Shown piece after piece: positions 48,356 through 50,088 of a stretch of DNA of 64,000 bases. The stretch covers positions 1,129,501 through 1,193,500 of the forward strand of contig NZ_CP114902.1 in assembly GCF_027497235.1 (NCBI RefSeq). The letters are read 5' to 3'. The translations under genes were made by a program, and so were the position numbers. Numbering within the stretch: position 1 is the stretch's first letter; every line of letters begins with the position of its first letter. The notes under the pieces are model-generated. The model worked only from the letters and a program-made list of their open reading frames with translations. It was not told the DNA's origin and did no database searches. The stretch comes from Micromonospora sp. WMMD1128 (GTDB taxonomy: Bacteria; Actinomycetota; Actinomycetes; Mycobacteriales; Micromonosporaceae).

Positions 48356-48574
48356 GGGTTAGTCTAGCCTGCTCGGCCGCGTGGTCACCGTATTCTTCAA
48401 TGGCAGCGGCACGGCGCGGGGTGGCCCGGGCGGGCAGGTCCAGCTCGACGCCTCCGTGCGTGGCGAACCGGTCGGTGAGCGCGCTGAACAGGTCGGCTCC
48501 CGGTGCGCCGTCGGCAACGGCTGCGGCAGGAGGGAGCCGTCACTCTCTGCCACTCTCAACATATATCGCACCCC

Positions 48575-48593
48575 GGGTCTTGCGGCAAGACCC
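48575..48593 (+). promoter_or_regulatory. Rifamycin-associated element (RAE)
   Basis: GGGTCTTGCGGCAAGACCC is a 19-bp inverted repeat matching the RAE consensus found ahead of rifamycin-resistance genes (core CTTGCGGCAAG). Here the dyad extends to 11-bp arms (48572-48596). It lies 61 nt before the monooxygenase start and about 8 nt after a CATATAT -10-like element, so it probably overlaps the transcription start. RAE links expression of such genes to rifamycin exposure. Confidence 0.9.
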
Positions 48594-48654
48594 GGGTGGT
48601 GCCGCAGACTCTCCGTTCGACGCCGTGACCTGGCGAAACCGAACGGGGGAGTCC

Positions 48655-50088
48655 ATGATCGACGTGATCATCGTGGGTGGCGGGCCGACCGGCCTGATGC
48701 TGGCCGCCGAGCTGCGGCTGCACGACGTGGGCGTGGTCGTGCTGGAGCGGGAGCCGGAGCCGACCACGGTGGTCCGCTCACTCGGCCTGCACGTGCGCAG
48801 CATCGAGGTGCTGGCACAGCGCGGCCTGCTGGAGCGGTTCCTCGCGGCCGGGAAGACGTTCCAACTCGGCGGCTACTTCGCCGGCATCGCCAAGGCGTGG
48901 CCGCCACGGATGGACACCGCGCACGGCTACATCCTCGGCATTCCGCAACCCGTCACCGAGCGGCTGCTGGCCGGGCACGCCATCGAGGCCGGCGCCGAGA
49001 TCCGGCGGGGGAGCGACCTCGTCGGGCTGGGCCAGGACGAGGGCGGGGTGACCGCCGAACTGGCCGACGGCACCCGGTTGCGTTCACGCTATCTCGTCGG
49101 CTGCGACGGCGGTCGCAGCACGGTGCGCAAGCTGCTGGGCGTCGGCTTTCCGGGTGAGCCCACCCGGCACGAGACGCTGCTGGGCGTGATGGAGCTGACC
49201 GCGCCGCGGGACGAGGTGGTCGCCGTGATGACGGAGGTACGCAGGACGCAGTTGCGGTTCGGCGCCGGGCCGGTCGGGGACGGGGAGGGGCTGTACCGCG
49301 TGGTCGTGCCCGCCGCCGGCGTGGCGGAGGACCGCACCGCTCCGCCGAGCTTCGAGGAGTTCCGGCAGCAGTTGCGGGCGACCGCCGGCACCGACTTCGG
49401 GGTGCACTCGCCACGCTGGCTGTCCCGCTTCGGTGACGCCACCCGCCTCGCCGATCGCTACCGGGTCGGCCGGGTGCTGCTGGCCGGCGACGCGGCGCAC
49501 GTCCACCCGCCACTTGGCGGACAGGGGCTCAACCTCGGTCTCCAGGATGCGTTCAACCTGGGCTGGAAGCTGGCCGCGGAGGTCGGCGGGTGGGCGCCGG
49601 CGGGACTGCTGGACACGTACGAGTCCGAGCGGCGGCCGGTGGCCGCGGACGTGCTCGACAACACCCGCGCGCAGACGGAGCTGATGTCCCTGGACCCGGG
49701 CCCGCAAGCGGTGCGGCGGCTGCTGACGGAGCTGATGGACGTCGAGGAGGTCAACCGCCACCTGATCGAGAAGATCACCGCGATCTCGGTCTGGTACGAC
49801 CTCGGCGAGGGCCACGAACTGCTCGGCCGCCGGCTGCGGGACGTGCGGCTCAAGCGGGGCAGCCTGTACGGGCTGATGCACGCCGGCCGTGGGCTGCTGC
49901 TGGACCAGACGGGCCGGCTCTCGGTGGCCGGCTGGGCGGATCGGGTCGACCACGTCGTCGACGTCAGCGAGGAGCTGGACGTGCCCGCCGTGCTGCTACG
50001 GCCGGACGGGCACGTGGCCTGGGTCGGTGACGACCAGCGGGAGCTGCTCGACCGGCTGCCGCAGTGGTTCGGGGCCGCGGACGGCTGA
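48655..50088 (+). CDS. rox: Rifampicin monooxygenase (FAD-dependent)
   Basis: 477-aa class A flavoprotein monooxygenase. FAD/NADPH motifs: [19 protein letters not shown] (1st), [19 protein letters not shown] (DG motif) and [20 protein letters not shown] followed by [14 protein letters not shown] (GD motif). The stretches [20 protein letters not shown] and [13 protein letters not shown] near the end closely resemble Nocardia/Streptomyces Rox/RIFMO as I remember them. These enzymes hydroxylate the rifamycin naphthalene ring and linearise it. A RAE upstream strongly supports this role. GGGGGA precedes ATG 48655. Confidence 0.93.

Follow-up and report, generated by a model that had tools for sequence, protein, structure and literature searches.

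A predicted monooxygenase gene in the window (the whole stretch of DNA analysed here, 64,000 nucleotides) is preceded by a palindrome of the kind known as the rifamycin-associated element (RAE). According to the Discussion passage covered of a 2026 paper (PMC12802891), the mode of action of RAE has yet to be worked out, and the question raised by this locus is how such an element may act on the gene behind it.

The rox gene and the RAE ahead of it

The gene, rox (48655..50088, plus strand), runs from an ATG at 48655 to a stop codon ending at 50088 and encodes an FAD-dependent monooxygenase of 477 aa. The protein passed the curated NCBIfam equivalog model NF033145 (rif_monoox) with 895.1 bits against a cut-off of 800, and its Pfam domains, FAD_binding_3 (PF01494) and the C-terminal Rng_hyd_C (PF21274), are of the aromatic-ring-hydroxylase type. 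Its best solved relatives, matched over the full length, are the rifampin monooxygenases 5vqb (797 bits) and 5kow (742 bits), which presumably come from S. venezuelae and N. farcinica, and no tested feature distinguishes the window Rox from them. Based on the family model and the closest solved structures, the window enzyme is classified as a Rox/RIFMO-type rifampin monooxygenase, in line with an earlier note on this DNA, and is predicted to be of the rifamycin-destroying type. A further in-frame ATG upstream, at 48400, would give a 562-aa frame crossing the RAE, which is regarded as spurious because residue 1 counted from 48655 aligns with residue 1 of 5vqb.

A 19-bp inverted repeat, GGGTCTTGCGGCAAGACCC, is located at 48575-48593 with its centre at 48584, 61 nt before the ATG. 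Its perfect arms reach CCCGGGTCTTGC-G-GCAAGACCCGGG (48572-48596), and a CATATAT lies at 48560-48566, 8 nt ahead of the repeat. Both distances had been given in the earlier note and agree with the sequence. The note had also taken the repeat for an RAE, and indeed both the RAE sequence, a 19-bp palindrome with the core CTTGCGGCAAG, and its position ahead of a rifamycin-resistance-type gene were found here. RAEs reported before rox, helR and rgt in actinobacteria have the same 19-bp palindrome and the same kind of target gene (passages covered of PMC10719064 and PMC8655204), and arr and rph are named as further RAE genes in the earlier note. The window gene and its element are members of this known RAE/rox kind.

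The 11-bp core CTTGCGGCAAG has one exact occurrence in the window. As a genome search by itself it is uninformative: it occurs 3 times in the single-contig genome of 6,814,137 bases versus 5 times (2 + 3) for the reversed control, and the 11-mer alone therefore proves nothing. The 17-mer GGNCTTGCGGCAAGNCC was found 3 times in the genome and its control 0 times, and the same counts, 3 and 0, were obtained for the complete unit, i.e. both -10 elements described below with a free 3-base centre. All three genome units precede rifamycin-resistance-type genes, namely rox, rph and helR, so that the search for further RAE sites suggested by the earlier note yielded two more. The rph product, a rifamycin phosphotransferase of 884 aa, scored 1551 bits against a cut-off of 999, and the HelR behind the third unit scored 1253 bits (cut-off, 750).

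Beyond this genome, the 17-mer was present in 182 of 393 class genomes versus 25 with a control match (counted from the table, among the matches listed), and the unit (both -10s plus TTGN3CAA) was present in 179 versus 17 with a control match (counted in the same way among the matches listed), some of the unit matches in low-G+C genomes resembling chance. When the genes downstream of 143 unit sites were scanned (loci L001-L184), a HelR, Rox-like, Rph, Rgt, Arr or MFS match was found within 2.5 kb at 142 sites, and the remaining one runs off its contig. Among 118 named-genome loci with the 17-mer, the unit was recognized by flank score in 87 and absent in 31. Two of these 31 are RAE-like by their downstream gene: L114 starts too close to the contig end for scoring, and the antisense box of L120 is seemingly one base off. 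The remaining 29 loci, which belong mostly to unrelated phyla, are all absent from the unlabelled sites with both -10s. Outside the actinobacteria, units precede genes in five metagenome bins, two labelled Gemmatimonadaceae, two Chloroflexi and one Xanthomonadaceae (L071, L073, L126, L147 and L152), where binning errors are possible, and a locus of a Bradyrhizobium isolate (L112) passed the flank score and failed both -10 tests.

The genome containing the window encodes a second Rox homologue (C1:6761807-6763216, minus strand; L325:9299-10741), which is 67% identical to the window Rox, scored 790 bits, slightly under the cut-off of 800, and has no RAE unit in the 450 bp upstream. Its neighbours matched VanS-type kinase and pectate-lyase models, both below the cut-offs. 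In the window, rox is flanked by PIN-domain genes, possible toxin-antitoxin toxins (47704-48078 and 50097-50495, both minus strand), and a gene for a MerR regulator with a GyrI-like ligand domain lies nearby (50784-51638, minus strand).

Conserved anatomy of the RAE unit

RAE sites were gathered by patterns imposing the core or the 17-mer, the latter kept with either centre base, among the matches listed. From 126 labelled rows, 3 were left out due to incomplete upstream DNA and 1 as a duplicate, and the 122 distinct rows (HelR, 58; Rox, 38; Rph, 18; Arr, 4; Rgt, 4; L094 counted in both orientations) were oriented by the downstream gene and aligned on the RAE centre without gaps. Conservation extends over ~80 bp, from about -41 to +40 relative to the centre. 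Outside the imposed core, A+22 and T+26 downstream and T-22, A-21 and A-26 upstream are near-invariant, and the top-conserved positions outside the RAE are those of an ANNNT on either side (98-99%), the signature of the M. smegmatis housekeeping -10 element (PMC6448022, in the part covered). Moreover, an xANNNT lies exactly 19 bp from the TTGCSG of the matching RAE half in 120 of the 122 rows on the sense side and in 119 on the antisense side, where it is TANNNT in 117, and spacers of 13-18 and 20 bp were found in 0-1 rows. Secondary xANNNT counts were observed at sense spacers of 21 bp (21 rows) and 22 bp (32 rows) and at an antisense spacer of 25 bp (61 rows).

The same pattern is present in the window. 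The left RAE half contains a predicted sense -35 element for rox, TTGCGG (48580..48585, plus strand), which is followed after a 19-bp spacer by a predicted sense -10 element, CAGACT (48605..48610, plus strand). From the position of this -10, the sense transcript would start at 48616..48618 (plus strand), +32 to +34 from the RAE centre. The right RAE half contains a predicted antisense -35 element, TTGCCG (48583..48588, minus strand), which overlaps the sense -35 by 3 bp, and a 19-bp spacer separates it from a predicted antisense -10 element, TATGTT (48558..48563, minus strand), overlapping the CATATAT of the other strand. The antisense start, judged from this -10, would be at 48550..48552 (minus strand). 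In 38 of 38 measured cases, Rox start codons are at +54 or beyond. Apparent starts under +32, which would speak against the predicted sense start, were seen in the Rph rows (3 of 4, at +12) and once among 44 HelR rows (+21), and are unreliable owing to upstream in-frame translation.

A bias check was performed on Rox-like genes obtained by protein search (110 of roughly 140 Rox matches listed), in which units were located by a flank-only matrix omitting positions -9 to +9. Six of the 110 were left out as their start was not automatically placed. Among the remaining 104 upstream regions, 71 had a flank score above the best of 312 shuffles and 33 were without a unit. Since the flank matrix was trained on RAE sites, the set of 71 is unbiased for the core and not for the flanks. 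TTG (-4 to -2) and the sense-strand CAA (+2 to +4) are invariant in all 71 units, and among the ten deviant 11-bp cores nine differ at -1 or +1 and one at +5, a pattern that fits -35 elements.

In addition, the leader of rox was inspected. In a transcript containing 48605-48660, a ribosome-site-like GGGGGAG would be folded into a strong stem (z -3.0), and a transcript from the predicted sense start would miss part of the 5' arm of this stem. A conserved leader hairpin formed by the sense -10 region with downstream bases was considered and set aside as weak: the best offset had 24 exact matches versus 15.1 when partners were swapped between sites, and other offsets had 1-5.

A possible two-promoter switch and its alternatives

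We propose that RAE forms the common centre of two promoters facing away from each other with overlapping -35 elements, a weak sense one and a stronger antisense one, and that rifamycin would switch their use to the sense promoter, a proposal that we think somewhat more probably right than wrong. Each RAE half would supply a TTGCSG -35 with a -10 exactly 19 bp off, one directed toward rox and one away from it, and the 3-bp overlap of the -35s would leave room for a single polymerase at a time. In the absence of the drug, the antisense promoter, with its better -10, would occupy the site, and in many relatives it would run directly into a terminator-like hairpin to give an RNA of ~30 nt. In the presence of rifamycin, the sense promoter would be used instead, leading to rox expression, a shift that we infer from the RAE-dependent induction of helD reported in PMC10719064 (in the part covered).

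Alternatively, RAE may be an operator for a dimeric regulator, most likely a repressor lying over both -35s and released by rifamycin or its effect, with the antisense promoter being secondary. We consider this possible rather than probable. The palindrome is perfect, and the arm positions past the -35s are nearly invariant in the 71 flank-selected Rox units (G-8 in 70, G-7 in 70, C+7 in 69 and C+8 in 71). Such arms fit, in addition to the -35s, a protein or a spacer-shape requirement; they would not be explained by promoters alone, and a bound protein would account for them. An additional factor is raised in PMC10719064 and in the Discussion of PMC12802891, within the parts covered. An operator, however, would not account for the antisense TANNNT that is kept at 19 bp in 117 of the 122 rows, nor for a hairpin at the predicted antisense start. 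Moreover, the MerR/GyrI-like gene is the sole regulator seen near rox, and as a candidate RAE-binding factor it was rejected, since no match to it was found (E 1e-10) when loci of up to 8 kb around the 87 named-genome units were searched.

The boxes may also be read inward, such that the box before RAE would be the sense -10 and RAE would be initially transcribed. In a convergent extension of this reading, two starts ~30 bp apart would flank RAE, a distance similar to the 39 bp in B. subtilis helD, whose convergent geometry has been published (PMC12802891, in the part covered). Indeed, ANNNT is identical to its reverse complement, which allows an inward reading of both boxes, and a sense xANNNT, CAACAT (48557-48562), is readable before RAE. 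The direction therefore rests on other signs, and the -10 boxes alone were rejected as a proof of it. The leading T of the upstream box (TANNNT) is present in 117 of 119 rows when it is read outward versus 20 of 119 when read inward. The downstream box has a leading T in 2 of 120 rows either way, and its direction therefore rests on the -35 and the helD report below. Outward, the TTG is supplied by the RAE halves in 71 of 71 flank-selected Rox units. Inward, no spacer of 15-20 bp gave a TTG before either box in more than 2 of the 122 rows, and there is little conservation from -60 to -42 (information, 0.01-0.46 bits).

Published mapping in M. smegmatis also bears on the direction. The passages covered of PMC10719064 report two sense promoters for helD, of which promoter 1 lies upstream and starts ~20 bp before RAE, and promoter 2, with a mapped start, has a -35 overlapping RAE. 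Promoter 1 agrees with an inward reading in being an upstream sense promoter, and RAE-containing transcripts may therefore be made, but its start is not at the RAE edge. Promoter 2 fits a sense start beyond RAE, and its overlap between RAE and a sense -35 would have a counterpart in the window, where the corresponding sequence pattern is present. The outward, divergent reading is therefore favoured over the inward, convergent one, which we find improbable, by the outward TANNNT, the absence of inward -35s and the position of promoter 2. The earlier note had read CATATAT as a -10-like box for the gene and RAE as probably spanning the transcription start and the first transcribed bases. Neither view is favoured by these counts and by promoter 2; instead, CATATAT probably marks the antisense -10, with CAGACT as the sense -10 and RAE upstream of the sense start.

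The two predicted outward promoters differ in sequence. Of the 143 unit sites, 128 have C as the first base of the sense -10 and 141 have T as that of the antisense -10. G occupies the centre at 110 sites and C at 33 (p 7e-11), the prevailing G placing a C at position 5 of the antisense -35. This is a bias, not a rule, and was rejected as proof of a one-way element. In M. smegmatis, transcripts of TANNNT promoters are reported to be more abundant than those of VANNNT promoters (PMC6448022, in the part covered), and the first base of the -10 (TANNNT versus CANNNT) and the centre base would all favour the antisense promoter.

A hairpin of -10 kcal/mol or lower was predicted from the antisense start in 101 of the 122 rows, versus 65 in mononucleotide shuffles and 37 on the sense side, and 69 of these 101 hairpins begin at the first two positions tested. 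A hairpin with three or more T among the eight bases after it was found in 56 rows, versus 7 in shuffles and 6 on the sense side. In the window, the stretch at the predicted antisense start (48510..48551, minus strand) folds into a stem (-18.6 kcal/mol, z -2.6) without a T-run, and a T-run is present in this genome at the units of rph and helR. The antisense terminator is thus a frequent, not a universal, part of the unit. Regulation by the short terminated antisense RNA, through an effect on polymerase or on translation, is suggested by the hairpin in many relatives and is nevertheless very improbable: the RNA would be transcribed from DNA ahead of the predicted sense start and would not be complementary to that mRNA, the window copy lacks a T-run and 66 of the 122 rows fail the hairpin-plus-T test.

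For the two-promoter proposal, a trigger beyond equal competition would be needed. Competition between polymerases, whether plain or combined with local recycling or uniform eviction, was rejected as a sufficient trigger: in an exclusive-occupancy toy model with three variants, 0 of 20,000 parameter sets rose above 1.0-fold. In this model, rifamycin acting alike on both promoters never raises sense firing, and an added asymmetry would therefore be required, e.g. promoter-specific rifamycin sensitivity together with clearance of arrested polymerase, or a protein on the RAE arms. Polymerase staying on DNA after intrinsic termination has been reported to re-initiate (PMC6978380, in the part covered), which could make the antisense cycle self-sustaining, with no inducing effect alone in the toy model. 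We tentatively suggest, as a conjecture that we would sooner expect to fail than to hold, that RAE is not an operator but two overlapping -35s with the polymerase itself as the rifamycin sensor: the idling antisense promoter, often feeding a terminator ~30 bp away, would hold the site until an arrested polymerase is cleared, upon which the weaker sense promoter would fire.

Relation to known systems and significance

In the published account of RAE, the palindrome is possibly bound by some factor, and an overlap with the sense -35 had already been reported, for M. smegmatis helD promoter 2 (PMC10719064, in the part covered). An outward antisense promoter, equal 19-bp spacers and an antisense hairpin at RAE were not found in a limited literature search that included passages of PMC10719064 and PMC8655204, and the proposed two-promoter anatomy is absent from the passages covered.

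The closest likeness is to the dual convergent-promoter rifampicin alarm of B. subtilis helD/pps (passages covered of PMC12802891), which has two opposed promoters, a stronger antisense one and control of rifamycin-protection genes, as is proposed for RAE. The B. subtilis helD promoters have escape half-lives of 3.9 and 0.56 min. At RAE, the sequence of the -10s points to the antisense promoter as the one of greater predicted strength. In contrast, the B. subtilis promoters converge and their polymerases collide, whereas those of the RAE unit, on the favoured reading, would diverge and share their -35s. The published search for alarms of the B. subtilis type was for convergent promoters 45-100 bp apart; such an arrangement was not found at RAE, where the promoters would diverge on the favoured reading and the inward reading is without -35s. 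Moreover, moving the two convergent promoters into steric overlap abolished induction in B. subtilis, and the trigger of RAE therefore cannot be identical. RAE is also comparable to the bidirectional promoters of E. coli (PMC12825309, in the part covered), in which pseudo-symmetric DNA is bound by polymerase in either orientation, exclusively. The symmetry is present in RAE and the binding is predicted. RAE differs in that its symmetry belongs to a single drug-linked unit, which is conserved and has a fixed 19-bp spacer to either side.

Genes of other kinds were also observed behind RAE units. An MFS efflux-type transporter gene follows a unit in Actinoplanes aureus and also in a member of the same genus as the window (L059:124-1794; L007:1505; L326:2665-6874), helR lying directly after the RAE-linked MFS gene in the latter; the transporter is a candidate rifamycin efflux pump. 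FAD monooxygenases of the PRK06834 group lie behind two units (L073:6136-7602 and L152:2020-3477) and scored 462 and 469 bits against the rifampin-monooxygenase model (cut-off, 800). FAD monooxygenase matches of ~47% identity, e.g. in G289 and G467, are also located behind RAE units, PRK06834 membership being established for those of L073 and L152 only. Together these enzymes are a candidate second family of rifamycin monooxygenases. The unit signature, with 142 of 143 sites lying before resistance-type or transporter genes, thus flags candidate rifamycin-resistance genes, including the MFS transporter and the sister FAD monooxygenase family.

The proposed two-promoter anatomy makes the question of RAE action directly testable. 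If the polymerase itself is the sensor, RAE would be a drug switch without a dedicated regulator, able to cross phyla together with its gene and analogous to the convergent alarm of B. subtilis.
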